From positions 44,901,810-44,965,809 of the forward strand of contig CM037593.1 of the NCBI GenBank assembly GCA_021018995.1: a stretch of 64,000 nucleotides of DNA, given 5' to 3'. The first letter of the stretch is position 1, and the number at the start of each line of letters is the position of its first letter. Below, in pieces: positions 6,693-45,430 of this stretch. Below the pieces are notes generated by a model. The model made no database searches, had not been told where the DNA came from, and saw nothing but the letters and a program-made list of their open reading frames with translations. This DNA comes from Chloranthus sessilifolius. Taxonomy: Eukaryota; Streptophyta; Magnoliopsida; Chloranthales; Chloranthaceae. The position numbers were made by a program, and so were the translations under genes.

Positions 6693-6871
6693 TGGCGCAA
6701 CTAATTAGTTGTGCCATTTTCCCAGGATTTATGCCTGGTGCAACTAATAGTTGTGCCAGCATTAAAGTGGACCCCACCCTCCGAAGCCAACTTACAGGCT
6801 ACTGTTCAGCACTATTTTACTGTACATATGTCTGGCGCAACTAATAGTTGCGCCAGACATATGAACAGTAA
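6693..6871. repeat. palindrome cluster in the 5' LTR of B
   Basis: Three sites of the palindrome with core GGCGCAACTAATAGTTGCGC: 6693-6716, 6735-6759 and 6832-6856. The last pair is 97 bp apart, about twice the usual 48 bp step. The 6832 site extends into arms of 27 bp (6817-6843 and 6845-6871) with one mismatch around a single central base. Confidence 0.85.
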
Positions 6872-7197
6872 CCTCTAATTTTACCTCAAATTTCGTGATT
6901 GGGGTTTGACTTGTTAACCACCTGGGTCTTTGGGGTATGTTTTGATAATTCTGTTGCACCCTCTTACACCCTATTTGCAACCCGTTAGGTGACTTAAAAT
7001 CCCTCCCTATCATCCACCATTGGGGGACCTTTTCACACCTTTCAAGGCTCCAAAAATAGATATGAGATTACCTAATTGCTAAAAACACCTTTTCATACCA
7101 TTGGGGGACCTTTTCACCCTAGGAATCCTTAGATATGAGATTACCTAATTGCTAAAAATAATTAACATCTAAGTGGTCTCCTAATCCACTCATTCCC

Positions 7198-7205
7198 TAT
7201 AAATA
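7198..7205 (+). promoter_or_regulatory. TATA box of B 5' LTR
   Basis: CCCTATAAATAGAGCC, a strong plant TATA box, about 330 bp after the last palindrome and conserved in the 3' LTR at 45712-45719. Confidence 0.8.
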
Positions 7206-7934
7206 GAGCCCCCCTCCCCTTGGATTAAAGGTTAAAAAATTTTACCTAAGAGAGAAAGAGCTTAAAGTGAGAAGATCTTTCTCCCTTTGGTGCACCATTG
7301 CTCATACAAATTTGAGAATTCTAAAACCTCCTTTGAGTGATATTTTACACCTTAGATCCCCTAGTTTAGGTGTATGCTACCCATTTACCTTCCCTCTCTC
7401 CCTCTTAGCTAGCAAGCCTTGGAAGTTAGTACTCCATTTTCCACCACACAAGCCTTCAAAAGCTCATCAAAGCAAGCCAACGCAAGACTCTCTTACGGTT
7501 CTACAAGGGCCCGAGGGCTCCGGCTCTCCCCTTTCTTCTCCTATCTCTTCTTTAGCTCTTTCCATCTTCCCATTTGTGCCATTATGCCGCCAAATATTTT
7601 TTAGGAACGGAGGGGCACAAATAGGATTTAAGGCCCATTTGGGCAAGAGGAAGCCATTTTCGTTTCTTTTACTTTATTTTTATTTTGGCCATTAGTAGAG
7701 ACTGCGTTAAGCGGGTTGATTGGGTGCCTAACATCTTCCCGATCAATAATCGAAGCCCCTACCCAAGAGCCTTTGGTGTGGACCGGATTCAGAGTCATAT
7801 TTTTAGCACTTCGGTGCTCATAAAAATGATATTAATTTCCCAGGAAACCAAAAGCTCAGGGTGGCGACTCCTTATTTTTTGTTAGCGAGCGCATCACCAC
7901 GACGGGATCGTAAAAAATCTCATGGTTGTGCAGA

Positions 7935-7952
7935 TGGCGAGTCTGCTGGGGA
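7935..7952 (+). promoter_or_regulatory. primer-binding site of B
   Basis: TGGCGAGTCTGCTGGGGA two bases after the LTR. This form is typical of Tat/Ogre elements, for which tRNA-Arg is the usual primer; the tRNA identity is from memory and would need alignment to tRNA ends. Confidence 0.7.
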
Positions 7953-8729
7953 TGACTTTTAGAGCTTCTCCTTGAAATTTGGCCATTTCTTTTTATTTTA
8001 CTAACCTTTTTTGCTATTTTTTTTATTATTTTTGTTATTTTTTCACCCCTACTTTTCCATCATTTTTATGCCTTAGCTGATCGGCATTGCCTTTATTTTT
8101 CCTTACATTTCTATCATTTTAGGTGCCTTAGCCAATTGGCAAGACTACTTGAGCATTGTCTTTCAATTTATTTAATTTTTCGTCATTTAAAGTGCCTTAG
8201 CTGATTGGCGGGCCTACTTGTGCAAACATATTCCGACAGTGGATGACGGCTCATAGTGGCGGCACGGGGTCATCACCCCCGTCTTTTGAACTAAAGAAAA
8301 CTTCCATAAAAAAAAGAGAGTTTTAAAAAAAAAATTAAAATTGAACCAAGAATAGGGAGCTTAATTAACTTGTTTTTACATGGTAGATTTTAAAAGGGTT
8401 AGGTTTATGCACACATACAACCACCTGGGTCTTAGTATGGTGGCAGCCCCTAGTGGTGATGATTCAGAAAAGTCTTAGCCCACCTAGTATCTGAGAAGGC
8501 GCTTGCGCCGGAGGTATATCCGGTGGGTTCCCATTCCAAAGCTTAAAACCCTTGGGGAGTGCGCTAGCGAGTTATATCGGACTCAAACCCTTTAGGTGCG
8601 GTGAGGAGAGAACCGCTCACAAAAAAAAAAGCTCAGTTCCCGGAAGCCTAACTTCCATAAAACCCAAAAAAGGGACCACTTTTAGGCTGCTATTCCCTGA
8701 TGTTATAGAATATGGAGCATCATTTTTGC
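7953..8729 (+). other. B leader, non-coding
   Basis: Three imperfect T-rich repeats of about 65 bp containing GCCTTAGCTGATTGGC (near 8071, 8121 and 8191) are followed by AT-rich sequence. I see no coding frame. Around 8490-8520 are short GC-rich inverted sequences (GGCGCTTGCGCC) that could fold. Confidence 0.5.
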
Positions 8730-8897
8730 CTGCCACAAGTATTAGTTGTGCCAGTGCAAAAATTGAGAATTTATAACTGGCGCAACTAATAGTTGCGCCA
8801 GCTTTAAATCCTCCACTTTTACCTTGGCGCAACTATTAGTTGCGCCAGTGTAAAAAAGGGGCCCTACTACCTTGGCGCATGTATTAGTTGCGCCAAG
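8730..8897. repeat. palindrome array in the gag leader of B
   Basis: Four copies at 8730-8754, 8777-8801, 8824-8848 and 8872-8897, starts 47, 47 and 48 bp apart. The second is perfect (CTGGCGCAACTAATAG and its complement half). The spacers differ more than the palindromes. Confidence 0.85.
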
Positions 8898-9380: not shown

Positions 9381-11168
9381 ATGTCGTGGGCAGTGGACCC
9401 GGCTTACGCCGATCCTGACTCATCCCCGCCACACTCTCCAACTCACTCCCATTAGGGAGACATTTCCACATCCATCCCCCTCACCCAATCACCCTTTACC
9501 GTTACTGGCCCATTTAGCGCCCCTGTCTTTTCAACCGCTACCTCCCCAAACATCCAAAATCTAACCCCCAACTCCCCATCTTTTACCCAAACCATGCCCA
9601 TGGCAAATCCAACACCTTTCCCATCCACATTCATGACAAACCCAAACCCATTCTCCATATCCACATCCATGCCCCATTTCCCATCTTCCCCCTATAGGCC
9701 CGATCCGCCCACACTCACATACACCACTTCCGCCTTATCCAACCCCCCACAAATCCTCCCATCTATCCGAGTCATGCCCATTTTTACCGGGGCTATGCCC
9801 AAATTTTCTCACCCCTCCACACCATACTCCCCATTGTCCTAAAACATACCCAATACACCCCTCATCCCTCCAATCCACCCCATATTCCATTACTTACTCG
9901 GGTCATGCCCAATTTTACCAGGGCCATGCCCAATTTATCCTTCACATCTATCCCATCTATATCCCATCACCCCTTAAATCCACCATCCACATCCGACTCT
10001 CCTTCCATGACCATGATGGAGGAGATGTTCCAAGCCTACTCCATGTGGAAGGCTTCCCAAAATGCCTCCTCTCCTCCACACCGCATGACCATAAACCCAT
10101 CCCATATCCTAGCCAATCTCCATGCTTCACTCCCCCGTGATCCCCATCAACTCCCCATAATTCACACCATCCAAAGCCCCATCTCCCATATACCCCAAGG
10201 CACATTGGCCCAAAACCCCACCACCCATGATCTCGAAGGCCCATTGGCCCAACACCCCATCACCCATTCCCAAGGGCCCATGGCCCAAACCCATCAAAGG
10301 CCCATGGCCCATACCCCTCAAAACCCAGTGGGCCAGGCCCACATACCCTAAGGGCCCATTGCCCAAACCCTTACCCAAGGGCCCATGGCCCAAACCCATT
10401 TGGCCCAAGCCCACACCCTCCAAGCGCCCACGGCCCATACCCACCAATGGCCTATGGCCCATACCCCTCAAACCCCACTGGGCCAGACCCATCAAGAGGC
10501 CCATGGCCCAGACCCATCAAGGCCCACTGGGCCAGACCTACCCAGGGCCCATGGCCCAAACCCACCAAGGGCCCATAGCCCAAACCCACTAAGGCCCACT
10601 GGCCCAGACCCACTAATTGCCCATGGCCCAAACTTATCATGATCAAGGTTTCATGGCCCAAGCCCAAATGCCACACTCATACCTTCCCCAATACCCCCAA
10701 CATTTCCCCCAACCTTCACACCTAGGTCAAACCCATACCATACGCCAAACCCAATTTTCTCATGGCCGCGTACCCCAAGACCATCTCCAAACCACTCCCC
10801 ATGCCCAATGGCCCCATAAGGCCCCACCCCAAAACCAAACTTCCACTCATCCCATCGTCCAACAAACTTTCCCTTACCCCCAATGGGCTCACCCAACCCC
10901 TGCTCATGCCATTCCCACTCAACCAATGCAACACCAACAATAGAATCCCACCCTCGCTGCACACTGTGCCGACTAGCAGTATGAAGAGGATGAGAATAGG
11001 AATAGTGGGGCATATGCTGGGACATTGACCAGCCTTAACCCTCCTCTCATAATTACCCACCCCTTGGTGGCCCTGAGTTAAGTCCAGCCAATGGCCGAGA
11101 AAGCAGCCCCTGTATCAAAAGAGTCAGACCAGCTGAAAGAACAGTTGGATAAAATTTAGAAGTAGTTA
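9381..11168 (+). pseudogene. proline-rich N-terminal extension of B gag
   Basis: From ATG 9381 (MSWAVDPAYADPDSSPPHSP) the frame encodes a long stretch dominated by P, H, T, S, Q and N, typical of the region before the capsid core in Tat gag. It passes through several stops and frame changes (9453, 9842, 10350, 10641). It ends with KAAPVSKESDQLKEQLDK near 11100-11157, a short charged helix before the capsid domain. The segment at 10000-10080 (MMEEMFQAYSMWKASQNA) is a conserved-looking helix amid low complexity. The role of such extensions is unknown. Opposite-strand open frames here are mirror effects of the GC-rich repeat. Confidence 0.6.
10190..10650 (+). repeat. 24 bp coding minisatellite (GPMAQTHQ octapeptide)
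   Basis: About 16 degenerate units built on GGCCCATGGCCCAAACCCA, encoding repeats of G-P-M/L-A-Q-T-H-Q. Some units have lost the frame. It lies in the gag N-terminal extension. Confidence 0.75.
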
Positions 11169-12440
11169 ATGAAAATGGATGGTGCTGAAATCCACGCCAC
11201 GGACTTCACAGATTTGTATTTATTCGCTAAGGTCTCCTTGCCCCCCAAATTTAAAATGTCGGCCTTCAACAAATATAACGGCACCGGCAATCCTATTGCA
11301 CACCTGAAGTCCTACTGTGGGGACATGTGCCAATACGAAGGGGACGAAAGACTGCTAATAAAAATCTTTCAGAAGATCCTGACCGGTCTAGCTTTGAGAT
11401 GGTTCACATCTTTGGAACCATTCATGATGAAAACATGGAAGGATTTGACGCACTCCTTTCAAGAACAATATGTCTACAATGTATACATTGAGCCGCGTAA
11501 GTCAGACTTAGCCCGCTTGAGGCAGAACTCGAATGAGACCTTCAGCGACTATCTGGGGCGCTGGAGAGCACTGGCAGCTCAAGTCAGAAACAAAATACTT
11601 GATGATGAGCAGATAGAGATTATCTCATAAAATACTCTGCCAGTGATATCAGACTTTTTGGTGTACCAGCAGCAGTCCAACTTTGCTGATTTGATAAAAA
11701 ATGCTAGTCGATGTGAGGATACCATCAGGGAAGGCCGCTTGAATAAGAACATGCCAAGTGGAGCCGGTGGGGTTAGGAGATTGTCAGAATGAAGAACTGA
11801 GAAGAGGACAGGGGTCGATGTTCAAAACATTGCCAATACCAGGCCCAGTAATAACATAACCCCATTCCAATTTCAAGCCATACCCCCAACACCGGCTAAA
11901 ACTGAGCAGATACAGAGGACAGGGAATGGGCAAGGAATGCAGATGACTCCAGAGTAGAGGAGAGCCCGCTATGACCGAGTTTTCACGCCCTTGGGGTAGT
12001 CTTTGAGTGTACTTTTACCTTTATTAATAGAAAAGTGATTAGTTACTATCCGTCAACCGCAACCTCCTCCTCACCTGATCCCAAGGAATTATGACCCAAA
12101 TACCCACTATAATTTTCATCAAGGTCCGGGTCACCCGACTGATCGCTGCTTCCCATTGAAGCACGTAATCCAAGATTTGATTGACGCTGAGAAAATAATT
12201 CCACCATCACCTTCTCAAGCAAACCATCATGCCAACATTCATCAAGTGCCATGAGCAGGTCCCAGTCCCACCATCGAGATGATAGAAAGTTAGGAGGAAT
12301 TTGAGTTCGATCCATCCGATTACATCAATGATCGGGAGAGTTATGTGGCACCATTACCAAGGAATGATGAAGAAAGGAATGTTGTGGTGATTGAACCCCT
12401 GAATTTATCTGATTATTTTCTCAGCCCCGTACGATAAGTT
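11169..12440 (+). pseudogene. Tat-type gag capsid and nucleocapsid region of B
   Basis: The Retrotrans_gag core is clear at 11240-11630: PPKFKMSAFNKYNGTGNPIA, SYCGDMCQYEGDERL, LALRWFTSLEP and SDYLGRWRALAAQVRNK. After a stop at 11628 the frame goes on (11640-11790, ISDFLVYQQQSNFADL) and reaches a zinc-knuckle-like motif at about 12091-12165, read as YDPNTHYNFHQGPGHPTDRC. The Tat consensus has Cys where this copy has Tyr in HYNFHQ, so the metal site has lost its first ligand. It continues with KHVIQDLIDAEKIIPPS. At least five stops (11628, 11790, 11955, 11998, 12028) make it non-functional. Confidence 0.8.
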
Positions 12441-14379
12441 GAGCCCTTGGATCTCAGAGCGTACTTTCCATCACCCACACCCGTCAATTATGTGCACATA
12501 AATGCATATTAACTATACACCACCACCCCCATCAAGTACCCAATAAACCAACAGACCCCTAATCCACCACCACCAATAAATTACCAATGGCCTACGCCCA
12601 TCCCATTATCCTCAGCTCAACCACCCACAAATTCTACCACCCCCGTCAATTCCTTAATGGCCCATCAAGCCCCCATTCTGCCACCCACTAACTACCAATG
12701 GCCTACGCCCACACCACCACCCTCAAGCTTCACCACCCCCATTTGGCCCAATCTAGCCACCCAATCCACTACCCCTGAAATAAACCAGGTGTTGCCCACA
12801 CCTCCTGAGCCATCTGTACATGCACCTCAAGTATCGACAACCATATCATTCCAGCTCTCAGGACCAACCTATGATCCTCACCAAGTCCCGCTGAGTTATA
12901 AACAAATAGAGGTCAACGCTGGTAGTCATAGAGAAGGGGTAGTGGACTTTGTCACGCGGTCTGGGAAGATATCAAGGCAGCCAAAAGCACCAGTAGCAGC
13001 ACAAGCCCAACCAGAGGGGAAGAAAGATAGAGCTGTGAACCCCTGCAAAAAAATGAGTCGGGAACATATACTAGAGACTCAACTAAGGAGAATGACTGCC
13101 CATATCACTGTGTGGGACCTATTAATAACGTCCCCACTTCATTTCCAAGCATTAATGGGGGCGTTGAAGAATGCGCATGTGTCGCTCCAAGTTAGCCCAG
13201 ATGAAGTCAGACAAATAATTGGTCAAGTGATGGCTCCTAATGCCATTTCATTTTCTGACGCCGACTTACCAGAGGAAGGAGACAGCCACTCAAAATTTTT
13301 GAATATAACAATTGAGTCCAGAAACATGGTAATCCCCTTGGTTCTAATTGATAATGGGTCTGCATTGAATATATGTCCGTTAAGAACCGCTACCAAGATC
13401 GGGGTCGATCCATGCATGTTGAGGCCCACGAGAACTAGCGCTAGAGGTTTTGACAATACCAGGAGAGACATAATGGGAGAAATTAATCTTGAGCTGTTGA
13501 TAGGGCCAATGAACTTTTCCATTTTGTTTCAAGTAATGGACATCAAATCCTCATTTAATCTATTGTTGGGGCGCCCATGGCTGTACGAAGTCGGAGCCAT
13601 ACCTTCCACATTGCTCCAAAAACTCAAGTTTGCAACTGGGCACAAGATTATCACCATCATTGGTGAAGGGCACAGTGAGAGAGAGAAGGCCACCAATAGC
13701 ATCAAAAAATCCAATATACTAGATGTGCCGCACACCGCTGAGGATGCCGACCTCCACAGTTTCGAATATGAGGTGTCGGCAATATTCCTAGAACCCATTG
13801 AGGGCATTATTCCAAAAACGGGAGGCGAAATGGTGGCAGCGGTGGCCATGCTCCAGAAATGGGGCTATCATAAAGGTAGAGGACTAGGGCCCAGATTGCA
13901 GGGTAGAAGAGAGCCAGTCATTGCCAAGGGACAGAAAGTTCGTTTCGGGTTAGGTTAGAAACCCACGGAGGAAGAGGTCCGAGAGGCTAAAGAGAAAGTC
14001 AGGGTCGCCGCAGCTGCGAGAGCTCTAGAAATCAACATTGAAGAGAAACCTCACCCTAGGCCACACATCTGGGATTCCTTTGTCAACGCTAGGGTCGTAA
14101 AGATCGATCGAAATGGGGTAACCCATTTGACCCCACACAAACCCATAACCCATGTCCATCCCACCAATCCCCACATTACCCTTCCTAGCTTGGAGATAGA
14201 TTTGGCCGCATTGTCCCTTTTCGAAGAACGATGGTCAGTACCTGAACAAACTCCCCCTATGGTAAATCACCACAAAACGGTATTGACGTTTGAGGACATC
14301 ATCTCAGACAAAATGGGGGTCAATATGATGGAGGCTGACTCCAAAGAGCCATATTAGTCAGCACCCTCCATCCAAACAG
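12441..14379 (+). pseudogene. B aspartic protease and G-patch region
   Basis: The open frame 12657-13958 (433 codons) holds a proline-rich lead, then the retropepsin domain: active site LIDNGSALNICP at about 13345-13380 (D-N-G-S in place of D-T/S-G) and the flap-side motif LLLGRPWLYE at 13562-13590. A G-patch follows: QKWGYHKGRGLGPRLQGR at 13855-13910. Retropepsin cuts the polyprotein; the G-patch is an RNA/protein-binding module characteristic of Tat elements. A stop at 13956 is followed by in-frame coding to 14357 (VREAKEKVRVAAAARALEIN). It is among the best-preserved parts of B. The reading frame ends at a splice donor candidate, CAG/GTAAAG, at 14379/14380. Confidence 0.8.
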
Positions 14380-14654
14380 GTAAAGGAGTGGCCTCTCAGG
14401 TACGCAACTGGGCATCTTTGCCCCAAACTCTGGAAGCAGGGAATGGCCTACAATTTGGCACCTGTTTCTTAAAAAAAATAACCTGTAAAAAGTGAGATAA
14501 GCTCTTGGAAGGAAATACCTTGTATATATGGCAACCCACTTTGCCAAGGGACCATCTCTGAAGAAAACAAAAATCTAAAAACATTAACAAAATACAAAAT
14601 CCCAAAACAATTGAAAAAATACAAAATTCTAAAATATTGTCTTTTAAAATTTCA
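14380..14654 (+). other. candidate pol intron of B (between protease and RT)
   Basis: Donor CCAAACAG/GTAAAGG at 14380, acceptor TTTTAAAATTTCAG at 14641-14654. The interior is A-rich with repeated ACAAAATACAAAAT and no protein similarity, and coding resumes right after it. Ogre elements are known for an intron in this position. Splicing cannot be shown from sequence alone. Confidence 0.55.
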
Positions 14655-15620
14655 GATAAAGTCCCACAAAATGATGCCTTAACCGAAACACCCGTCCCAC
14701 GTAAAATCGACCCCTTTCCTGTAGAAATACAAGAAGAGGTAGGAGTTATGAGTCTGGATGAGGATAGTCCTTTGGAGGAGCTCCCCAATGAGCTCCTTGA
14801 CTGGTTTGCCGAATTTGAGCATGGCCCTACCCCATTGTCGAGGAAACTGAGGATGTTAATCTAGGGACTGAGGAGATTCCCCGAATTACTAAAATCGGAA
14901 TGTCATTGTCTCCCGAGGAAAGGAAAAGCATGATCGATTTCCTTCGGTCATGTCAAGACATTTTTGCCTGGTCGTACGAGGACATGCCTGGTCTGGACAC
15001 CGATTTGATCGAGCATGAGTTGCCTCTCTACCCCGATATGAAGCCGGTCAAGCAGAAGCTAGACATCTCCGACTCGAGTGGATGTTGAAAGTCAAAGACG
15101 AGGTCATCAAGCAGTATGATGAGGGGTTTCTCATGGTATCCAAGTACCCATAGTGGCTAGCCAATTTCGTGCCCGTACCGAAGAAGGATGGAAAGGTCCG
15201 CATGTGTATCAACTTTCGAAATTTGAACAGGGCAAGCCTGAAAGAGGATTTTCCATTGCCGCACATCGACATCTTGGTCGATAATACCACTAAGCATGGG
15301 ATGCTTTTTTTTATGGATGGATTCTCGAGATATAATCAGATAAAGATGGCAGAGGCAGATCGAGAGAAGACTGCGTTCATCACCCCCTGGGGAACCTTCT
15401 GCTATAGAATCATCCCGTTTGGGCTGAAGAATGCCGATGCAACGTACCAGAGAGCCATGACTGTGCTATTTCACAACATGATGCACTGATAGATTGAAGT
15501 TTATGTTGATGATATAAGAGCCAAATCACTGGAGTGAGGCGATCACTTGGTAAACCTCTTAAAACTGTTTGAGAGGCTGAGAAAATATAGGTTACGTTTG
15601 AATCCACAGAAGTGAGCATT
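14655..15620 (+). pseudogene. reverse transcriptase of B
   Basis: Copies element RNA into DNA. Visible in order: DIFAWSYEDMPGLDTDLIEH (14960-15020), NFVPVPKKDGKVRMCINFRN (15165-15225), PLPHIDILVDNT, FMDGFSRYNQIKMAEADREK (15310-15370), TAFITPWGTFCYRIIPFGLK and, after a stop at 15487, the catalytic EVYVDDIRAKS (15496-15528). The usual FMDGFSGYNQI has Arg for Gly. Frame changes near 14864-14900 and 15088 and stops at 15487, 15536 and 15613 inactivate it. Very similar in layout to the RT of element C. Confidence 0.85.
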
Positions 15621-15627
15621 TGGCGCT

Positions 15628-16380
15628 ATGTCCGGGAAACTGTTGGGATTCATCATCAGCAAGAGAGGGATCGAGGTTGACCCAATCAAAGTCAAAGCTA
15701 TCACTGAAATGTTGCCACCGTCTACTGAGAAGGAAGTTAGAGGGTTCTTAGGTAGAATGCAATATATCAGTCGATTCATTGCACAGCTAACGCCTATCTG
15801 CACGCCGATCTTCAAACTACTTCGAAAGAACTCACCCGTTGAATGGAATGATGATTGTCAGGCAGCGTTCGATAAAATCAAAGGCTACCTCCTTAACCCA
15901 CCTGTGTTGGTACCACCTAAGCCTGGGAGATCACTCTTGATGTATCTCTCCACGACAGAAGTTTCGATGGGATGTGTCTTAGGTCAGCATGAATAGACAG
16001 GAAGAAGAGAACATGCCATTTACTATCTGAGCAAGAAGTTTACTGATTATGAAATGCGCTATTCTCATCTAGAGAAAGCATGTCTGACTCTTGTATGGGC
16101 TACTCTGAGGCTCCGCCATTACTTACTATCTCAAACCGTTCTACTTTTAGCCCGAATGGACCCGTTGAAATACTTGTTCGAAAAGCCAGCCTTCACTAGA
16201 CGAACTTCATTATGGCAGATTTTATTATCCGAGTTCGACATCACGTACGTCACTCAAAAGTCAATTAAGGGGCAGGCACTCGCCGATCTTCTTGCCGACA
16301 ATCCTTTGCCAGATTATGAACCTTTGAGAACTGAGTTCCCTGATGAGGACATCCTTTTCATAACGGAAGACGATACTGAA
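15628..16380 (+). pseudogene. RT connection and original (first) RNase H of B
   Basis: RT thumb and tether: LLGFIISKRGIEVDPIKVKA, then EKEVRGFLGRMQYISRFIAQ. The first RNase H follows (RSLLMYLSTTEVSMGCVLGQ at 15930-15990; YYLSKKFTDYEMRYSHLEKA; HYLLSQTVLLLARMDPLKYL). The usual catalytic Asp of the first motif (YLxxSDxA type) is absent. This is typical of Tat elements, in which this domain has decayed and a second RNase H has been added. One stop at 15994. Confidence 0.75.
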
Positions 16381-16953
16381 GAAGTAGAAGAATCATGGGT
16401 AATGCACTTTGACGGGGCAGCTAATGCAAAAGGTCAGGGAGTTGGCGCCATTCTGATTTTGTCGAAAGGATCCCATGTACCCGTCTCTATCAAGCTCAAC
16501 TTCCCTTGCACTAACAGCATGGCTGAGTACGAGGCTTGCGCCGTTGTTCTGTAGGCATCCCTCTATCTAAACGTAACTCACCTTCGAGTGTTTGGCGATT
16601 CGCAATTAATTATATGTCAGACGAATGGTGACTGGAAGACAAAAGATGAGAAACTAATCCCCTATCATGAACACCTCAAGGATCTGATAGCTTACTTCCA
16701 AGACATGACATTCTCATATGTCTCCCGAATAAGGAATCGCTTTGCCGATGCACTAGCCACATTGGCATCAATGATAGAAATCCGGTATAGTGCTGAGATG
16801 AAGCCAATCATGATCGAGCAGAGGAATGAGCGGACCTTCTGCCTCCAGATTGAGGAACCTAAAAAGCCTGATGATGAGCCACCTTGGTTCTTAGATATTA
16901 AAAATTTCCTCGAGACACTAACTTTCCCTGAGGGTACGTCCAAGACAGACTGA
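16381..16953 (+). pseudogene. second, archaeal-type RNase H of B
   Basis: Removes RNA from RNA:DNA hybrids. The four acidic residues are visible: MHFDGAANAKGQGVGAIL (16400-16455), AEYEACAVVL (16522-16551), RVFGDSQLIICQTNG (16585-16630) and NRFADALATLASM (16735-16770). This extra domain is a hallmark of the Tat lineage. A stop at 16552 interrupts it; otherwise it is well kept. The C-terminal linker runs to a stop at 16951. Confidence 0.8.
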
Positions 16954-18130
16954 CGAACCATTCAACGCCTAGTAGCAGGCTACGTCGTTTGTGGGAGTGC
17001 CTTTACAAGAGATCCTATATTAACATCTTACTCAGGTGCCTTACAGAAAGGAAAGCGGTCAATATCATGAAGGAGATCCACGAATGAGTATGCGGAGCCC
17101 ATGTCAGTGGTCACGTGCTTGCTAAGAAAATTCTACGGCAGGGATACTTTTGGACCACTATCGAATCAGATTGTTGCAAACATGCCCATAAATGCTACAA
17201 GTGTTAGGAACACTCTGGTCTGATACACGCTCCTACCATCGATCTTCACTGCATGACCACTCCTTGGCCGTTTGCTACATGGGGCCTTGACATCGTTGGA
17301 ATGATTAATTAGAAAGTATCAAACGGGCATCAGTTCATCCTCGTCGCCATTGAATACTTTACCAAGTGGGTAGAAGCGGCATCATATGCCAACATCACGG
17401 CCAGTCACGTCGAGAAGTTTCTCAAGAGTAATATTATGTGCCGATTTGGAGTACCCAAGGATATCATCACAGATAACGACATAAACTTTGTAAATAAGCA
17501 CGTTCGAGCCTTCTGCGAGCAATACAAGATCAAGTACATCACTCGTCACCTTATCGACCTCAAACTAATGGAGCCGTGGAAGCTGCTAACAAGACGGTCG
17601 TCCGCATCCTTGAGAAGATGGTCGTCACTTATCGAAATTAGAGCGAAATACTACCGTTCGCTCTATGGGCCTACAGAATGTCCATCCGTACCACTACAGG
17701 GGCAACACATTTCTCCCTTGTGTATGGAACCGAGGTCATCCTATTAGTTGAGGTTGAGGTACCCTCGCTCCGAATCCTCATGGAATCAGGCTCACCCGAA
17801 GCAGAGAAAGAGATCCCGCTTTGACCAATGGAACTTATTAGACGACAAAAGACTCCTAGCCTTGTGTCATACTCAAGTTTACCAGGGGAGACTCACGCGC
17901 GCTTATAATAAACGTGTCCGCAATCAAGATTTGAAGGTAGGAGACACTGTGTGGAAGATGATCTTCCTATCCCTCCATGCCGATCTGGGAAGGACCTTAT
18001 GTCGTTCGAGAAGTGCTACCGGAATGCGCCATCCGTCTCACGACCATGGACGGAGATCATCTTTCAGAGCCCATCAACGTTGGATACGTCCGACGGTTCT
18101 ACTCGTAGTCTCTTGCGATAAGGTAAGTAT
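16954..18130 (+). pseudogene. integrase of B
   Basis: Inserts element DNA. Zinc-binding part at 17085-17220 (CGAHVSGHVLAKKILRQGYF, then HKCYKC with a stop). Core: WGLDIVGMIN (first Asp, 17280-17310), EYFTKWVEAASYANITASHV, IITDNDINFVNKHV (second Asp; the usual Gly is Asp, 17465-17505) and TNGAVEAANKTV (catalytic Glu, 17563-17600, in a shifted frame). Then LWAYRMSIRTTTG and the C-terminal AYNKRVRNQDLKVGDTVW (17900-17955). Several stops and at least two frameshifts (near 17550 and 17740). Confidence 0.8.
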
Positions 18131-19876: not shown

Positions 19877-19883
19877 TTATATA
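19877..19883 (-). promoter_or_regulatory. TATA box of A 3' LTR
   Basis: TATATAA in GCTATATAAGCC on the minus strand; conserved in the 5' LTR at 34969-34975. Confidence 0.6.
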
Positions 19884-33641: not shown

Positions 33642-33647
33642 AAAACT

Positions 33648-35963
33648 TGTTAGGCTATTTGTAATGCGTAAGAGTTTGTCCCCCAGGGAAAGTTGAGCTA
33701 AAGCTCCAAGGGAGCTATCTTTGGTAGGCCCTCCAGATCTGGCTACAGATCTGGCAATCCTAAATGGAAGGGGATTTAAGGTCACTATTGTCTAAATCAT
33801 AAGGTAACCTAATGCCTAAACTACAGAAAGGGTTGAGAAGAATGATGGAGTGTGAGAAAATAAACATAAAAGGGGGAGAAGTAAGCTATTAGGTACAGAT
33901 CTGATGGGTCATATAACTCAGACTCAGATCTCCTGCTATAGAAATCCTGTCCAATCGCTACATTATCACCAAAGAGGAGAAAGAATCAAACTGACCCCTG
34001 TGCCATGATCCAATCCCTTATGGCTATAACCTATCCACTTGAATGGTCACAGACTATCCAATAGGAGAACCACAATCCAGAGATGGGTCAGAACAAGTTT
34101 ATCATCGTAGGCACTACTTCTTCTAGGCTACCAGCTCAAGAATCCATAGGAACCTTAACCTCTAAAGTTCTGTGTGTGGGGTTAGGCCTGCAATCTGCAC
34201 TAGCCTGGACACACAGAACCAGCAAGAGTTTGAGTACTAGCTTTTAAGCTTAGCTGTTCACTGTTTTAGAAAGACAGCAGTGATCCAGTCACAAGCCTAC
34301 AATAACTATAGCCAGATCAGATCTGTCATCTGATGGTGGGTCTATACAAATACAGGGGAGTCTGTCTCTGCACAATCTCTCACAATTCTACAAGCACAAG
34401 TGCAGAGAAGAAGGATCTGTCTTAGATCTATGGATTGGCCTCACCCTAGGGCTATAATCTGTCCACTTAAATGGTCACAGACTATCCACAGAGGTTATCC
34501 TCCTCACAGAGGTCTAAGACAGAACAAGAACATTGCTGCCACCACCATGTTCACAAGGCTACCAGCTCAAGCCCCGATGGGGATTCAGATTTAGTGGATC
34601 TTGTGGTGGGGCATAGGCCTGCAATGTGCCTAACCTGGACACACAGGTCCCTTGGATCTAAATAAACCCTTAAAAATAATCCTCCATTGCTTACAATCCA
34701 ACTTAGCAATGGAGGATCTCAAGGCAGCAGCCTTGTACAGAACAACTCTCAAAACACCAATCCCATACATGCATAAAATCCTATTATAAAAATCCATTAA
34801 AACTATTCCAAATAGACATACAAAGGCATAGCTAGCAAATGCTGGACTATTGAGAGAAGAAAAAGGATAAAAAGAAACTACCTAAACCCTAACCTTAGCC
34901 TACTGCAATTCTACAGTTGGTTTCAAGAAGGAGTACAGAAGTCCCTTAAACCTAAACTAGGCTTAGGCTTATATAGTAGTCAGCTCTGTGAGAATTAGGG
35001 TTAGGAAAACCCTAATTTATCAATGCTATCATGGCCCATTTCTGTTCCTTGGATGCCTCAGGGCGTGTGCATAGAGATTGGAGCATTGTAGTGCATGCCC
35101 TAGTTGCTGGAAGTTCCCAGATTGCCCCTGTAGAAGTTGGGAGAAGTTAAGAACCCGAGCCTTGCTAGGTAGAAAGGCTTTCCAGGTCTTATCGCGTGAT
35201 AGAATTGGCATCGCAAGGTTGATTTGACTTGATGCTCTTGCAGTTGCGGGATTGATACTTTGGTTGTCGCTGGAATGCTCTGGTCGTCGCGGGAATGCTC
35301 TTTCCATTTGAATGGCATGGGAATTGCGCGTGCGGCTCGTTCCTTGATGAATCCTGTGGCGATCCTCACGAAGAAACAATGCGCATGGACTTCTGGATCG
35401 CGCGAGCAGTTCCTTGAAAGTTTGTATCCTGCGGCCACTGTGCGACAGCTGCGCGCAGGAATGCATGGAGCTCTCTCTCCTTAGTGAATCGCGCGAAGAT
35501 TAAAGACGTCTTTCTTGAGCTGCGCGAGACTGTGCGAAACTGTGCAAGAGCTTATGACTAATCCTCGCGAGAGCTACGCGAAGTTTACTTTCTGGGCTCT
35601 TCTTTCATTCATCTGTGCGAGAACAGCGCGAGCAGTTGGCGTGCTGCCTTCAAAAGCCCGCGACAACTGCGCGAAGCATTCTTTCTGGTTCAATTGAGCC
35701 CTGCGACATCTGTGCGAGGCTCACTTCTTGACTTGTTTCTGCTTTGCTGTGCCTAAGCTGCAGTCAGTTCTGTCTGGGTCTAACTTTCTTTCTCCTGAGG
35801 CACTTCTGGGGCCAAAAGGTAAGCTTCTTAGCATGGTTAGGGCCTTATTTGCAGCTGCTGCTTATTACCTATAGGATAGATTTAAAACACATTTATTAAA
35901 TGGTTAAGGGTCTAATAGAGATTAAGTTAAGGGGTGAAAAGTGGTACTTTTCAGGTCTTAATA
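33648..35963 (-). repeat. 5' LTR of element A
   Basis: 2,316 bp. It lacks the 136 bp insertion of the 3' LTR and keeps about 43 bp near 34610-34650 that the other copy lacks. TATA box at 34969-34975. CpG-rich motif stretch at 35190-35700. Confidence 0.9.
34969..34975 (-). promoter_or_regulatory. TATA box of A 5' LTR
   Basis: TATATAA on the minus strand in ACTATATAAGCC. Confidence 0.6.
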
Positions 35964-37059: not shown

Positions 37060-38596
37060 GAAGGAATCAGCGGCCCAGCTCGCGCTTTAAAGCACTAATT
37101 TCAACACAAAAATCATCTTCCCGGGCATTCCGCTCAGTTAACCAACGACCATGCAAGCTCTTATACCTCTTCCGAGAAGTATCAGTGGCTCTGAGGGCAA
37201 CACTTAAGGATCCTTTTAGACGAAGGACCTCTCCCTCTGCATCCTCTGCTCTGACCGTTTCCTACGTTAAAAGCTCGTACAGGACCCTCTTCTCATCCAC
37301 TAGCAGCGCAATACGAGCTCAAAGTACCATCTCTTTCTTTGGCTAAGGGCCTCCAGTATCAATACTCTCCGCTAAATCCAGACGACTAGCAACAGGCTGC
37401 TCAATCATTAGCCAGGCCTCATACTCAGGAGAAGACTGAACCAAATCTCCCTATTCCATATCGCACATCAGCGTCGACTGACGTGTCTCCCAAAGAGCAG
37501 CGATTCGATCTATGTCCCCAGAGGACCCCCTAGAAAAGATCAAATCACACAGAGGGGGTTTTGCCTCGCAAGGCACCTGCTGAGTGCAGCCAAACTGACG
37601 CAACACTCAAAATGGGAAGTAGAAGGTGCTGCCTGTCAACCCCAAAAGGGTGATGCCCTCGTGGTCCCGGGAACGAATCATAGGGAAGGTCTGCTCTAGC
37701 CAAGGAAGTCTCCATATGAGATCCACGCTAATCAGCCAAAGCTTCAATTTTGACAAATCTCCCTGGGGAATCATGTGGCACCTGTCCAAAAAGCATCGAA
37801 CCACCTCTCCTCGAGCAAGATAAAAGCGGGGCACTGGTCCCAAAATGGCAAGATGCTCTCCCAGCCAAACCTGAAGCAAAAGTGGGCAACCTCCAAGATT
37901 CTTGGTCTTCCCAAGGGAAAACACATCAAGGCATCGAAAAAGTTCAGCGAGCACCAAATGCATCATAGATCGGCCTGCCTCCAACTCGGTCAAAATATCA
38001 CAAATTGCCAAAGAGAAGCTCTCTCCCCCAGTAAAGAAAAGGATTTCTGAGAAAGAGAGAATGCTTTCACATTGAAGATATTCTGAGTCGGGAATTTTCG
38101 AAGACTTTCGTCACCAAAAAGTTCTTTTAGGAATTTCATCGAACACCTAGTGGGCCCCCCCAATGAGACTTTTCTGATATTCATTTTTCTTCAAGCCCAT
38201 GGTAAGGTGAACGGTTTTGGCATAGCCCGACTTCGGTACAATTCTAGCAAGGCCCCTGTGAAGCCTCAAACCTGACAAGTTAGACAATTCCTCAAGAGTA
38301 GGAGTTATCTCTCGATTCCCAAATCAGAACACATGGCCACTTGGGTTCCAAAAAGATGTGGCAGCATAAAGAAGATCCCACCGTGGGGGAACCTCAATAA
38401 AGGAAGGAAGGCGAGATAGCCCAAGGTGCTCCAAATCAACGAGCTCACTCTCATTCAAGCTCCCAACCCAACTCGTTAGAAATTTGGGTCCCATGCCCAA
38501 GGAAAGGGGTAAATTGAATCCTGGCCCTCCATGTAAGGGAGGGTTGGAAAGCGGGTCCATAAACGTACAAGGATCTTTGAAGCGTATAAAATTCAA
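37060..38596 (-). pseudogene. antisense DUF7745-like gene in B
   Basis: Starts at ATG 38596 (MNFIRFKDPCTFMDPLSNPP) and reads with few stops through SELVDLEHLGLSRLPSFIEV, RWDLLYAATSFWNPSGHVF, then (after TGA at 38342) FGNREITPTLEELSNLSGL, MGLKKNEYQKSLIGGPTRC, LAELFRCLDVFSLGK and LARGEVVRCFLDRCHMIPQ. The C-terminal end (37350-37060) is charged and helical (RLKGSLSVALRATDTSRKRY), a likely coiled coil. The F..PTLEEL..L.G pattern resembles the plant DUF7745 / mobile-domain type protein; function unknown. A TATA-like TTATATAC (38696-38703, minus strand) and two palindromes (38729-38800) lie upstream. Stops at 38342 and past 37607 make it a pseudogene. Family call is by eye. Confidence 0.55.
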
Positions 38597-38695: not shown

Positions 38696-38703
38696 GTATA
38701 TAA
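38696..38703 (-). promoter_or_regulatory. TATA-like box of antisense DUF7745-like gene
   Basis: TTATATAC on the minus strand, about 100 bp before the ATG and just downstream of the palindrome pair. Confidence 0.4.
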
Positions 38704-38728: not shown

Positions 38729-38800
38729 CTGGCGCAACTATTAGTTGCACCAGTGCATTTTGTCCCAATCTTTGCCTGGCGCAACTAATAGTTGCGCCAG
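38729..38800. repeat. palindrome pair before the DUF7745-like gene
   Basis: Sites at 38729-38753 and 38776-38800, starts 47 bp apart. The second is perfect (CTGGCGCAACTAATAG and complement). Confidence 0.85.
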
Positions 38801-39154: not shown

Positions 39155-41628
39155 TTAAAAAGGAGAAACTAAGGCATATTCCTTATCCGCGCCCTTTGAT
39201 TTCTTCCGACAACGAGTGGAGCCCTGGTAAGTCTGCATATCCCCCCCTCGGGACCAGGCTTGAGAAATTCGGCTAAGCAAAGATCGCGACTCCTTGGCGC
39301 ACGCACGCTGCAGGTCATAGACAAAATCAGAAATCGGGACCAATCAAAATGATGACGAAACCTACAGAAAAAGCAGAGCAACATAATACTCACCGTCTCT
39401 ACATCCTGAAGCTCCACAAGGTTACGATGATACGCTGCATACTCCATGGCTGAGTCGAAGTTCTACATTCAAAAAGATACAATGTCAGCAATCAGGGCAA
39501 TACTAAAACATGTGCAAAAGGAAGCCGGAAGAAGAAAGAGATGGGCTGCCAGAAGACTTACCCCAGGGATCACCTCAAGAGGAGGAACACGGGCCACTTT
39601 AGAAGAGAGGCGTGCCTGCCTGTCCACGACAGCGCACAGGTATGAGAGAAAGCTGTCATCAAGGCGTCGAAAGGTCCCATAGACCACGGTCGGGTCACCC
39701 CCCCGGAGCACCAGCCTGAGAAGTACTCGACGGACCAACGCTGGAAGAACTTGCCAGAAGGACCCCGCACCAGAATGGTCAACGCCAGAAGGACCTACCC
39801 TCGAAGTATCAGATGTACTTGCTGCCGTCCCGCCTTCATCATTAGAGCCGTTCCCTGGAGCAAACTGTAAACAAAATAAAAATCAGTTCAGAAAGAATAG
39901 AGGCCGAGATAAAACAAAAAGAGACTAATCTAAAGAGGAAAAGGTAATTACCTACACACGCAGGCTGCCAAATGCGAGGAAATTGACACTAGGTTCAAAC
40001 CGTGGTAGGATAAATCAATATGGCAAGCACTCGTACCAAGTATGATAGTCTTTGGGCACATGAAGAGCAAGGATAGGGAGCTCATTGTTGAGGAGGGCCA
40101 CCATGAGTTCCTCAACGCTACCAACAAGATTCCAAACATCCATAGGAGGGTCCATGAGAATGGCATAGTAGCCCTGGAACTGGCACACCACCCGCTCTCC
40201 CAAGTAGTAAGCCTTGGCCTATGCCCCATAAAAGAAAACAACACAATGGTTGTTAAACAGGCGAGAGAGGCCTACGGCCGTCCGATCTCAGAAGGGGAAT
40301 GTGAGATACGGGTCATGGAGGATCTATCCAAGTCCAAAAGCGGTTAGTCAATCAAACAGGCAGTATACTAATAAAGAAGGATTTCCAAGCACAAGTAAAC
40401 CAAGTTGTTAAGAGAGGCTTTACCTGCTCAAGAACCATCAGGTCAAGTTGGGACCTTAAACCCAACTTCAGGTGCTTCATGCCCACATCACGGCGTCGGG
40501 CTTGGTTCCAGTTGCTAAGAAGAGGGTAAGTAAGGTCCTCCAAGTGAAGAAGTGGCTCAGGGTGAAAATGGTGGTATCCCCATACCTGAAATGAGCATTA
40601 CACAGGAGCAGGTCAGTGGCATATAAAGATCATTCAAGAAAATTGGCGAAAGCGAAAGAATGAGAGATTACCTCCAAGGCGGCCCAAAAACTAACAACAG
40701 ATTTGGAATCCCCGGTCATGACCCGAGCTAAGTTAAACATTAACCATGCGTACCCGGCCCCACCCCAATCATACCTATGGATGTCACCCCAGTTGTCCAT
40801 GACGCTCAGCAACGCTAGGCTAACTCGGCCACCGCTCGCATTGGTAAAAAGGGTCTTACCCAGCAGGATCAGAAGAGTAATGCGGGCCAAGACAATCACC
40901 TGCTCAGGCATAATATAAAGCACCCTATCTGGCTGCCCCAGGTCCACCAACTCGTCGGTCGTGTAAAGTGCGGTAAGTCAGGACATGTTGACCTTAGTAC
41001 CATGCGCCTGCCCGCCAGGGGGATAGGCCCCTATCAGTCGGATGACGTCCTCTCTACACGACATGGAGAGGTCAGCTATCGGTATCCCTCCCATCCTAAT
41101 ACCCGTAATCATTGCCCAATCAACAGGTGTCAGGGTTATCTCGGTGTACGGCTTGTGGAAGTTCATCGTCTCCGGGCGAAACCGTTCGATCAAGGCCTTC
41201 AGGTAGGCAGCATCAGCCCTCATAGCAAGGCAGGTCAGAAACTCTCCAAAGCCCACCTATGCTAGCAGAAACTTCACTATGGGGGGGACATAGAGGTAGA
41301 AGTCTTGGAAATCAAGCCATCCCCCGCGAAATACAATAGAGGGCAAGTCCTGCATAAGAAGAGAAAAATACGTTAGATCATGAAAAGAAAGAAAAGCTAC
41401 ACAAAAAAAGAAATCTGAACCATATTTTACCTGGCCGCTATGCCGAAATTCGAAATATGGGTATGCTGTTGATGCAGGCGGCCGGCTCGGGCGGCCTCAC
41501 CCTACATTTCGAGCAATGCGCCCGCCTTCCACTCCACCCAAAGGAAATGCTCCCTTCGCAGGCCGTATACTATCTCGGGCCCTTCCTTGTGGCCATCCTC
41601 GGGAACGTGCTCATCACCACCCGACATT

Positions 41629-42862
41629 CTAAAGCAACAAAAATCAATCACATTAGAGCAGATCAATGATAAAGAGCCATGATAAAACATGCTACAAAGG
41701 AAGGTAAGTATGCTCACCCTCCCCCCTTCTTTTACTTATGAGAGATACATATGCATATGCAAAAAAAAAGAGAGATCCCTTTTAGATTGAAAAAAATCCT
41801 CTCTTCAGAAAATGATAATAAACAAAATTTCCCCTTCCTATCTTTGAAAATAAAGCAAGTTAGAATCGAATAAAATCATTCTTTTATATTTCTGAACAAA
41901 AAAAAGATAAAAAAACCTTTCCTTTTATACTTAGAAAAACAAAAAAATCCTCCCTTTATGTCTAGGAAAACCAAGAAAGAGAAATCATCATCACGCTTCT
42001 CACAAAAGGTCATTTCTTCGTGTTCCTAAAAACAAAAAAAATAATAATCCTTTACTTTGTCTGTCAAAATAAAAGGTAAAACCAAAGACCAAATTTTTTC
42101 CTTCATTTTGTTTGTCGAAAAAAAAAAAAAGAAAAAGAGAGTAAAAACCAAAAACAAAAAATAATCCTTTACTTTGTTTGTCAAAATAAAAGAAAAAAAC
42201 CAAAAAAAAAAAGTAATCCTTTAACTTTGTTTGTCAAAATAAAAGAAAAAACCAAAAACAAAAAATAATCCTTTATTTTGTTTGTCAAAATAAAAGAAAA
42301 ACCAAAAACAAAAAATAATCCTTTACTTTGTTTGTCAAAATAAAAGTTAAAACCAAAAAAAAAAAAAATTTCCTTCATTTTGTTTGTCGAAAAAAGGTAA
42401 AATCAAAAACAAAAAAATTCCCTTTACATTGTTTGCAAAAGTAAAACAACACAAAACTTTTCCTTTACTTTATTTGCAAATATAAAAACAAAAACAAAAA
42501 AATCATTTACTTTATTTTGCAACAATAACAAAAATCATAAAAAAAAAACAAACAAAGAATCCTTTGCTTTATTTAAATAAAAAACAAAAAAAAAATTTCT
42601 TTACTTTATATAAACAAAAAAAAAATCCCTTTCAATATATACAAGTAAAAACAACAAAAAATATATAAAATATGTATAATATATTATGCAAAACACATGA
42701 AACAACAAAAATAGGGCATCATTCATAAGAAATCATCCACACACAATCAATGAACATATATACCACGAAAGTTAACCATTACTCATCAAAGAATGTAAGA
42801 TCATGATCATATTTGCAAAAAATAATAAGAAAAATCAAGAAAAATGAGTTTTTAATGGTTAC
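41629..42862 (-). other. first (leader) intron of the PMD gene
   Basis: Bounded by CACAAG/GTAACC and TTGTTGCTTTAG/AATGTCGG. Contains the AT-rich tandem repeat 41760-42640. Long leader introns are common in plant genes. Confidence 0.55.
41760..42640. repeat. AT-rich tandem repeat, about 51 bp period
   Basis: Core units with AATAATCCTTTACTTTGTTT at about 42044, 42161, 42213, 42265 and 42315, so steps of 50-52 bp in the best part. Decays on both sides. Lies within the PMD leader intron. Confidence 0.7.
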
Positions 42863-43072
42863 CTTGTGAAGGGGATGGGTCGTTGATCTTCTGCGGTGCG
42901 AACGAACAATCGACAAACAAGCAATAGCAATGCGGCACGCGTAAAGGCAACGTAAAGGAACCCTAGAGGGGGGCCGGTTTGCAGTTTTGAGAGAGCGAGA
43001 GGAAGAGTTTTTGAAATAACCACCTTGCTACCTGAACTCAGGCGCTTTAAATTCAAAAAACCCCAGTTTGGT

Positions 43073-43241
43073 CTGGTGCAACTAATAGTTGCGCTAGACA
43101 ATTTTGCCCCTCGGATTGGCTTGGCGCAACTAATAGTTACGCCAGGCAATTTTTTGGCCCTGATTAGCTTGGCATAACTAATAGTTGCACCAGGCCATTT
43201 TGAGCCTTCTTTTGGCTTGGCACAACTAATAGTTGTGCCAG
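43073..43241. repeat. palindrome array before the PMD gene
   Basis: Four copies at 43073-43097, 43121-43145, 43169-43193 and 43217-43241, starts exactly 48 bp apart. Spacers are alike (CAATTTT...GGC), so the array is a 48 bp tandem repeat whose palindromic half is best kept. Confidence 0.9.
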
Positions 43242-44814
43242 ATACTTCCGAGCTGTGTTGGGCCTAGGTCGGGTCTCATGCTTGGCCCGATTCCCCTCCC
43301 TCTTTGTTTTGGATACCCCCAGTAGATGCATATTCTCCCATGGCATTTCGATCTTTGTTCGACTTGCCCAAGTGGAGTTGCTAAAATAAGTGGACCAAGA
43401 TCGATGAGCAAGCTCAAAGCATCTTGATCAGACATGAAAAATACCAAAAAAACACATAAAATGATAACTTCAATATCCAAAAAAAAATCACGTAAAATAA
43501 TATAAAAATCACAAAAATATATAGCACATAAATGATGACATATTTGTGCTTCCCCAAGGAGTTGCACACATGCATAATACGGTGAGACATCAATGTTCTA
43601 TCAGCAATACAGCGGTGCCATAATAAAGTCTTGAGTCTAAGGTTCACGTCGGATCTTTGGATCCTGCTTTAAGGTAGGAGCAATGGTGTCGGTCCCGGTC
43701 AAACAGTCAATGTTTTGATCAAGTTGACTCCCCTGCTAAATCTTGGGGATTAGCGCTCTGTTTTGGATTCATATGAACTTAAGTATCTTAAGCTTCAGAT
43801 ACTCCATTGGAAAAGGTCAATAATTGGTTAAGACCGACCTGTTGAGAATGAGATTACGTATCAATCAAACTATGTGCAACCATGCATCCATGAAGGGTTC
43901 ATTTTCCCTTTATTTTCTGCAGGCTTAGAACCTGTATTGGCAGCGGTATCCCTGTAAAGTGTACGCCATGCGTCTAGGTATCCGTATGATGGTCGTTTGT
44001 TCCCCTAAATTGTACCCAGGCAGGTCTGGGTTGGGGCTTCCATCACCTTTGTTGTTGCTTATTTTCCCTGATGGGTGCATGTTTATGCATAGTTAAAGGA
44101 TGTCTATGATCATTGTTGACGGAAACCAGGATTGGATGTCCCCTTTAGGAGACACCCAATATTTGGTCGGATCTGTCCAAGGTAGTTGAAGCTGGATGCT
44201 CTAGGTCATGTTAATCAAGGGCATGCTTTCAAAAATGGCAAGTACTCCTAAAAAGTATTATAATTTTTATTTGCTCTGCTCAGGTAATCGTGCTAAATAA
44301 ACTTCGGGATCAATGGGTTCGCCTAAAGACCTCAAACCCTGCTTAATGCAGGGGCACCTATGACCAGTCAAATGGGCCAATCAATGCCTCATAGGATTGG
44401 ATGCAAACTGTGGAACCTTGCATATTTTTGCTTTGCGCCTATTTTTAAGTGTGGGTCAATCACCCCCTACTTGCGAAGCTGTTGTATTCAGAATGAATCT
44501 TTAACATCATCTCAAGAAGCGGACATTTTTCCTGACTAACAGGTTTTCGCAACTCGAGAAGCGAATATTTTTCTCAGCTATTAGACTTTCACAACTCATT
44601 CCACCTCAGTTATGCCCAATAATGTCGCTAAGCACTTGGGGACCGATCACCTTGAGAAACTAATGTTTAGCCTGGCATCCAGGGCTTTCATTTTCTCACC
44701 ATGTTACTCATCTGATGCTTGAAGTTCATTCTGAATATAGGAGACCTGTCAGTAATTCCTTGGGCCTCTTCAGATTTTCTTTTCTTTGGCATTCGATTAT
44801 TAGTGATTGGATAC
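43242..44814 (+). other. B 3' untranslated region
   Basis: Over 1.5 kb with no convincing frame on either strand and no repeats I can name. Ends in the polypurine tract. Confidence 0.45.
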
Positions 44815-44828
44815 CAAAGAGGGGCATC
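44815..44828 (+). promoter_or_regulatory. polypurine tract of B
   Basis: CAAAGAGGGGCATC directly before the 3' LTR, the usual form in Tat elements. Confidence 0.8.
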
Positions 44829-45261
44829 TGTAGACACCCAAGTTTGGCCCAAGGCCTGATTGAAACATATTTCGAGAGAGGCGCATTTTTGAGCCTTTGA
44901 TGGCATGTATGGAACCCTTAGGAATCACTCCAAACCTTAGGAATCACCCTAGATCCCTTAGGAACCTATCCTGAACCCTTAGAAACCCATCTCGACCCTT
45001 AGAACCCATTTCGAACCCTAAACCTAACCTTCCCAGGCAATGGATGAGGAGTGGTGCATCGAGACTAGCTATGGCCTTCTACTATAATTGAATCTCATAC
45101 CATTGAAAAGTAGAAGTTGTCAGCTTTCCAACGATCTAAGAACTGCCCCAATCGGAGTTGTACATCAAAAGATATGGTAGTCTGAACCCGGAGGGCACAA
45201 GCATAATTTTGATTAGCCACCCCCTAGGGATTTGAATTAGTTGTGCCAGTTTTATTTTTGC

Positions 45262-45430
45262 CTAGCACAACTATTAGTTGCGCCAGGCCATTTTCCCAAG
45301 ATTTATGCATGGCGCAACTAATAGTTGCGTCAGCATTAAAGTGGACCCCACCTCGCGAAACCAACTTCCATGCCACTGTTTAGCACTATTTTACTGTACA
45401 TTTGCCTGGTGCAACTAATAATTGCGCCAG
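45262..45430. repeat. palindrome cluster in the 3' LTR of B
   Basis: Sites at 45262-45286, 45309-45333 and 45406-45430 (47 and 97 bp steps), with a half site at 45236-45249. Same positions as in the 5' LTR; differences are mostly C/T or G/A at CpG. Confidence 0.85.

Follow-up and report, generated by a model that had tools for sequence, protein, structure and literature searches.

An anti-silencing system made of an element-encoded protein and its sites, VANC/VANDAL, is described for MULE DNA transposons of Arabidopsis, in which the protein and the sites are reported to change together by lineage (PMC5735166, PMC10398659). In a 64,000-nucleotide stretch of the Chloranthus sessilifolius genome (contig CM037593.1; the whole stretch is called the window here), we analyzed a Ty3-type long terminal repeat (LTR) retrotransposon that carries a repeated palindromic dyad. 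As in the VANC accounts, the motif is repeated in non-coding regions of the element (here at four places, which hold 77 of 78 arrays), and related elements differ in the motif, VANDAL elements being described as encoding an extra protein of matching specificity. The reported VANC6 motif AGTTGTCC shares AGTTG with the half-site found here, perhaps by chance. However, the host in our case is an LTR retrotransposon with gag, reverse transcriptase (RT), RNase H and integrase, not a VANDAL (MULE) DNA transposon, and, since the VANC system sits in DNA transposons, VANC membership is not claimed for this element. The VANC motifs are given as 8 to 9 bases, and PMC5735166 does not use the word palindrome in its main text. 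For VANC, binding and a loss of methylation are reported as experimentally shown, whereas the present sites are known from sequence. The near-constant step of 47 to 48 bp and the distance to nearby promoter-like boxes are features of this element that set it apart from the VANC sites as described.

Accessory genes are also described for Ogre and Retand elements. According to the published accounts, a plant mobile domain (PMD) is found in 57% of Ogre elements (PMC6317226) and Transposase_28 in Retand, and a regulatory role of the extra genes was proposed by the authors; the gene23 of Grande is described as having its own promoter and a nuclear product (PMC6317226, PMC7264820, PMC11963269). The function of the antisense genes of Ogre/Retand-type elements is described as unknown (PMC11963269, PMC7264820). 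In their cited parts, these accounts mention tandem repeats of the 3' region, but no dyads common to LTR, leader and antisense promoters, and they name no target site. In Arabidopsis, MAIN, MAIL1 and PP7L are linked to the DOWN motif, so that PMD proteins are tied there to the expression of genes with a promoter motif, as is proposed here; the DOWN-motif site CATGCAGTTT differs from our dyad, and direct binding is presented as unproven in that system too (PMC7156037, PMC9899485). No description of dyads such as those reported here was found among titles and abstract openings, a search that covered subscription papers and preprints thinly.

Dyads at four places of the element

The palindrome, CTGGCGCAACTA-W-TAGTTGCGCCAG, is odd and 25 bp long. 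About 16 copies had been reported in a preliminary description of this DNA, and 16 are indeed present at the places named there. They form five arrays (Table 1), one in the U3 of either LTR, one in the gag leader and one ahead of each of two antisense genes. The cluster at 6693-6871 lies within the U3 of the 5' LTR. Fifteen of the 16 copies match the consensus at 20 to 24 of 24 letters; the copy at 6692 scores just 15 in the 25-bp frame because it is one base longer (26 bp). A search of the window with a 20-mer and up to 3 mismatches returned 27 rows over both strands, against 0.01 expected, and five first-order shuffles of the window contained zero copies with at least 17/24 matches. The start-to-start steps given in the preliminary description hold for the leader, for both antisense-gene arrays and for the 3' LTR (47 and 97 bp), whereas those of the 5' LTR are 43 and 97 bp and not 47 and 97 bp. 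As a separate observation, the last U3 dyad lies inside a near-palindrome of 55 bp (6817-6871), and the flanks of the last LTR dyad have a mean symmetry of 0.63 in the sampled arrays, where the chance value is assumed to be about 0.25 to 0.28.

The 2.17-Gb genome contains 10,922 exact matches to the 20-mer (5473 forward, 5449 reverse) and none to its reversed control. Three samples of loci were used. Loci L009-L068, twenty of 10 kb and forty of 0.8 kb, were taken around exact palindromes, all in the first 72 Mb of contig 1; L001-L008 were excluded from the counts because they overlap L009-L014. Loci L069-L088, on contigs 1 and 2, were chosen by an exact copy of the changed palindrome described below. 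Loci L089-L108, rows 3 to 22 of 40 scored, are the closest LTR relatives and the sole sample picked without the palindrome, using the LTR outside the dyads. With dyads counted at 17/24 matches or better (other thresholds apply in other comparisons), the window and the first 60 loci hold 237 dyads in 78 arrays, and 77 of these fall at the four places seen in the window: LTR (38), leader (13), gene 2 (13) and gene 1 (13). The exception, L062, has steps of 32 and 48 bp.

Steps of 47 to 48 bp make up 109 of the 159 steps overall, followed by 24 of 96 to 101 bp, 14 of 37 to 38 bp (about one helical turn less) and 12 others. The step is 48 bp in 20/20 cases at gene 1, 47 to 48 bp in 36/36 in the leader, and 47 to 48 bp in 24/25 at gene 2, with one of 44 bp. 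LTR arrays, whose copy number varies from 1 to 5, are more diverse (28 steps of 47 to 48 bp, 14 of 37 to 38, 24 of 96 to 101 and 10 others; n=76). Dyads were present at 30/30 sites with both flanks aligned in the twenty 10-kb loci, which were themselves chosen by a dyad. Other copies thus carry the palindrome at the same places and with the same steps, and the absence or random spacing that the preliminary description named as counting against it was not seen. In the palindrome-blind sample, 18 of the 20 LTRs carry 2 to 5 dyads. Dyads were absent from L094 and L106, which have no match to this U3 and few matches in or at the edge of a nested foreign element, suggesting that the U3 is missing there.

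Conservation of the dyads and a sister lineage changed in both arms

Next, pairwise identities of dyads, spacers and flanks were compared in 58 of the 78 arrays, those with the commoner copy numbers, omitting exact dyad copies. The respective values were 0.857/0.785/0.784 in four-copy leaders, 0.799/0.584/0.702 and 0.847/0.743/0.703 in three-copy arrays of gene 2 and gene 1, and 0.841/0.657/0.690 and 0.828/0.667/0.765 in LTR arrays of three and four copies. In the palindrome-blind LTRs, with dyads taken at 16/24 matches or better, A/T columns were conserved at 0.964 in dyads, 0.863 in flanks and 0.843 in spacers (p 2e-6 and 4e-6, taking columns of related sequences as independent). Hence, the statement of the preliminary description that spacers differ more than palindromes is borne out in most comparisons, the two-copy arrays of gene 1 and the G/C columns being exceptions.

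To compare across places, spacers of 46- to 49-bp steps were used, with a random 15% of the pairs from different places. Spacer identity was 0.718 at the same place and rank, 0.516 between different places and 0.472 after shuffling; dyad identity was 0.855 at the same place and rank and 0.843 between different places. Since the spacers are nearly unrelated across places and the dyads alike, the element contains four nearly unrelated stretches with one dyad and one main step.

The half-site can be written GGCGCA-W-S-TA, where W-S is AC in both arms in the lineage of the window. A sister variant, GGCGCATGTA-W-TACATGCGCC, has TG in both arms, that is, four base changes, and occurs in 720 exact copies in the genome. 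Among the 20 loci picked by this variant, the changed dyads again occupy these four places (LTR 6, leader 2, gene 2 7, gene 1 5), and 20 of 25 steps are 46 to 49 bp, the others being 42, 77, 77, 89 and 96 bp. Six pairs of these loci stand at distances fitting one element, so distant arrays of one element share the changed dyad. Of 45 sister dyads, 25 are exact, as expected of loci selected by exactness, and 16 of the other 20 are symmetric at the variable pair. Overall, 41/45 are symmetric there, namely 38 of the lineage type, one c.c, one d.d and one a.a, and the remaining four are mixed, so that 3 of the 7 dyads not of the lineage type have both arms changed alike. One changed dyad each, symmetric in itself, was also found in L034 and L013 of the first sample. 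We regard this both-arm change as the best evidence and as stronger support than the preliminary description had.

A tree of gene-2 flanks separated eight mostly changed rows (including L013 and L080), together with L026, from 11 rows with a support of 100/100; L026 has the dyad type of the window, yet groups with the changed rows. In the LTR tree, the four changed rows group with a weak support of 76. In locus L080, counted as LTR, a dyad array stands between a U3 flank and a gene-2 flank, as would result if recombination between arrays had shortened the element. We also considered whether the antisense proteins diverged faster between the dyad lineages; this is not used as evidence, the identities, from one changed-dyad element, being mixed: 61% between lineages against 75 and 80% among elements of the window's lineage for a 115-residue piece of gene 1, 69% against 60 to 75% for a 92-residue piece, and 73% against 70 to 76% for a 167-residue piece of gene 2.

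The host element, its antisense genes and nearby boxes

As seen by self-comparison of the window and from the boundary bases, one Ty3-type element at 6288-46446 contains all 16 palindromes. Its Pfam domains follow the order RT_RNaseH (3.5e-16), RVT_3 (3.7e-10) and rve (7.9e-10); a second RNase H thus precedes the integrase, as in the Tat/Ogre lineage. The element, of about 40 kb including a nested insert of 17 kb, also has antisense pieces of a PMD open reading frame between pol and the 3' LTR, a further Tat/Ogre trait in so large an element. The nested insert is another LTR element, at about 18617-35963 (self-comparison and Pfam). Directly 3' of the 5' LTR stands TGGCGAGTCTGCTGGGGA, a candidate primer site for tRNA-Arg, the Ogre type. 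Inverted matches of about 69 to 76% flank the element at 3011-5013 and 46609-48807, perhaps other LTRs in the opposite orientation, and a perfect 40-bp palindrome, TGACCTATCTAACCTCTTTTGAAAGAGGTTAGATAGGTCA, lies outside it at 62373-62412.

Table 1. Dyad arrays and other features of the window
Feature	Position	Strand	Details
U3 array of 5' LTR, 3 dyads	6692..6856		starts 6692, 6735, 6832; steps 43, 97; first copy 26 bp
Leader array, 4 dyads	8730..8896		starts 8730, 8777, 8824, 8872; steps 47, 47, 48; copies 1 and 4 are mixed dyads
Array upstream of antisense gene 2, 2 dyads	38729..38800		starts 38729, 38776; step 47
Array upstream of antisense gene 1, 4 dyads	43073..43241		starts 43073, 43121, 43169, 43217; steps 48, 48, 48
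U3 array of 3' LTR, 3 dyads	45262..45430		starts 45262, 45309, 45406; steps 47, 97
5' LTR (TG...CA)	6288..7932	+	self-comparison of window; GAATC precedes at 6283-6287
3' LTR	44829..46446	+	self-comparison, boundary bases; GAATC follows at 46447-46451
gag, RT, RNase H, second RNase H (RVT_3) and integrase pieces	11166..17747	+	Pfam
Antisense gene 2 (PMD/DUF7745-like), broken in window	37607..38560	-	candidate ATG 38560; PMD 7.7e-5 on 37607-38110, below curated cut-off
Antisense gene 1 (PMD), broken in window	39469..43000	-	limits approximate; PMD 0.0075 on 40630-40977, below cut-off
TATA-like TATAAATAG	7198..7206	+	sequence read; about 340 bp downstream of U3 array; putative promoter
TATATAA box	38697..38703	-	32 bp from proximal dyad; putative promoter and direction; also reads on +
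TTTAAA box	43046..43051	-	27 bp from proximal dyad; putative role; readable on other strand too

The gene names of the preliminary description, PMD and DUF7745-like, agree with Pfam, where the pieces in the window and the DUF7745 matches score below the cut-off. Better matches come from copies elsewhere: for gene 2, PMD at 7e-13 above the cut-off (L026) and DUF7745 at 3.5e-5 below it (L024); for gene 1, PMD at 2.2e-16 with 60.4 bits against a cut-off of 34.9 (L019). Gene 1 has an apparent splice donor near 42863, and A-rich tandem repeats of about 50 bp at 42143-42446 lie inside its likely first intron. PMD is very abundant in the genome (20,277 first-look candidates); the 117 scored gave 128 matches and include three full-length copies without stops, which may be host genes.

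A TATA-like box lies on the gene side at 31 to 34 bp from the proximal dyad in 13/13 gene-2 arrays. In gene-1 arrays, TTTAAA stands at 20 to 27 bp from the proximal dyad in 11/13, at 33 to 34 bp in L031 and at 65 bp in L019, with a shorter palindrome between. Among 12 leader arrays of three or more copies, 11 have TTATAA directly next to the second dyad (window 8755-8776), which could mark a further promoter, in either direction.

A putative self-regulatory system and alternative explanations

The sites, with their places, steps, box distances, conservation and both-arm change, are well supported, and from them we infer the promoters, the protein binding, the dimer, the identity of the protein and the direction of its effect. 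Our favored reading, to which we give an even chance, is that the dyads are operators for a twofold-symmetric regulator, most likely an element-encoded PMD protein, acting in the manner of VANC/VANDAL anti-silencing. A sequence-specific protein would read the half-site, in the form TGGCGCA-W-S-TA, twice around the central A/T, as a twofold-symmetric dimer. Arrays of mostly 2 to 4 sites, mainly at 47- to 48-bp steps, would serve it in the U3, in the leader and directly upstream of the TATA and TTTAAA boxes of both antisense genes and, since they stand at all these control regions, one protein could regulate every transcription unit of the element simultaneously. The likeliest reader may be one of the antisense PMD proteins, closing a feedback loop; it is the simplest candidate because a lineage could then change protein and sites together. 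The likeliest effect would be to activate copies that bear the matching site or to protect them from silencing, the role that VANC has for VANDAL. One such factor could explain why the dyad is shared among otherwise unrelated sequences, why it recurs at this step and at this distance from the boxes, and why its arms changed jointly. The fuller proposal, held more tentatively and at somewhat less than an even chance, is an Ogre-type self-regulon, in which a PMD dimer on phased dyads of the LTR, the leader and both accessory promoters would keep matching copies unsilenced, and lineages would escape cross-talk by joint change of dyad and protein.

Several observations weigh against this reading. 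In two-copy arrays of gene 1 the dyads are not better conserved (0.667/0.689/0.661 for dyad/spacer/flank, from 75 letter pairs), nor are G/C columns in the palindrome-blind LTRs (0.849/0.827/0.819 for dyad/flank/spacer; p 0.25 and 0.31, under the same assumption of independent columns). The 24 steps of 96 to 101 bp are out of phase, and decayed dyads sought in these gaps gave no clear sign (the best matches average 9.8, against 9.2 after shuffling). Because the arrays of a given place share ancestry, their uniform steps and box distances are in part inherited, and the box distances have no chance control. Copies 1 and 4 are asymmetric (mixed) in 11/11 four-copy leaders of the window's lineage and, since mixed dyads also occur elsewhere among the matches listed, symmetry seems to be preferred but not absolute. 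Genome-wide, changes at CpG are unmatched between the arms, with 387 and 871 symmetric and 1206 asymmetric cases, where independence predicts 1161 of the latter, a value calculated by hand from the numbers of the two symmetric classes. On these figures, and on 147 non-exact copies with 22 symmetric double changes against 25.2 expected from shuffled arms, the idea that symmetric CpG change proves a kept dyad was rejected. Single copies thus seem to decay neutrally, fitting methylated and mostly dead copies, and the lineage change must therefore have happened in active ones. As for the protein, one PMD-bearing product of gene 1 had no sequence match of known structure, and three other PMD copies lacked an array of this kind in the 1 kb preceding the PMD exon, although their promoter may lie further off. 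Overall, the earlier interpretation of the palindromes as sites for a dimeric protein that coordinates the element's genes is supported in part: the palindromes are kept at their places and steps and mostly vary less than the spacers, whereas the G/C columns are no better conserved in the palindrome-blind LTRs and single CpG changes are unmatched between the arms.

The evidence on the sites would suit any trans-acting factor, and they could thus be read by a host transcription factor, for example of the MYB, E2F or HD-Zip type, that sets tissue or phase expression with no element protein involved. Repeated MYB sites are known from the LTR of tobacco Tto1; that case differs from ours in that the factor is the host's and the sites are in the LTR only, with no dyad and no sites at accessory genes known. 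The half-sites seem loosely to resemble MYB type II (TAGTTG) and E2F (TTGGCGC) sites. The first T of an E2F-like site is present in just 83/237 copies. Moreover, sister-lineage arrays carry another half-site at all four places, where a host factor would need swapping at every site. We consider host regulation unlikely, though less so than the two readings that follow.

Both of these seem to us improbable, to the same degree. The dyads might act as hairpins of the genomic RNA (or of single-strand DNA) in packaging, priming or template switching. A dyad does fold (11-bp stem, -18.1 kcal/mol, z -7.05), its pairing is kept by the both-arm change, and all places lie within the full-length RNA. Nevertheless, a G.U pair is tolerable in RNA and A.C is not, so that C>T would be expected to outnumber G>A in the sense strand of a hairpin; the two counts are about equal (105 and 96, end positions omitted; p 0.57), which speaks against this reading. 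In RNA there is no obvious need for near-constant steps and box distances, and the leader-type mixed dyads, which are conserved across elements, give weaker stems (-13.6 and -14.8), although these still fold. The dyads might otherwise be passive tandem repeats, functionless and homogenized by recombination, slippage or template switching among palindromes, as the variable copy number of LTR arrays (1 to 5) and the tandem-like steps would suggest; the U3 and gene-2 flanks joined at a dyad array in L080 likewise suggest that palindromes may be recombination joints. However, with nearly unrelated spacers at different places, exchange would need to stop at the dyad edges repeatedly, and passive repeats sit poorly with 77/78 arrays at the same four places, with similar box distances and with A/T positions conserved above the spacers.

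A conserved, lineage-specific dyad at several control regions offers a concrete target for the function of the antisense PMD genes. If the reading of the dyads as operators for the element's own PMD protein is true, VANC-like self-recognition would extend from DNA transposons to LTR retrotransposons. It would also give the plant mobile domain a molecular role, with a bearing on the host proteins MAIN and MAIL1.

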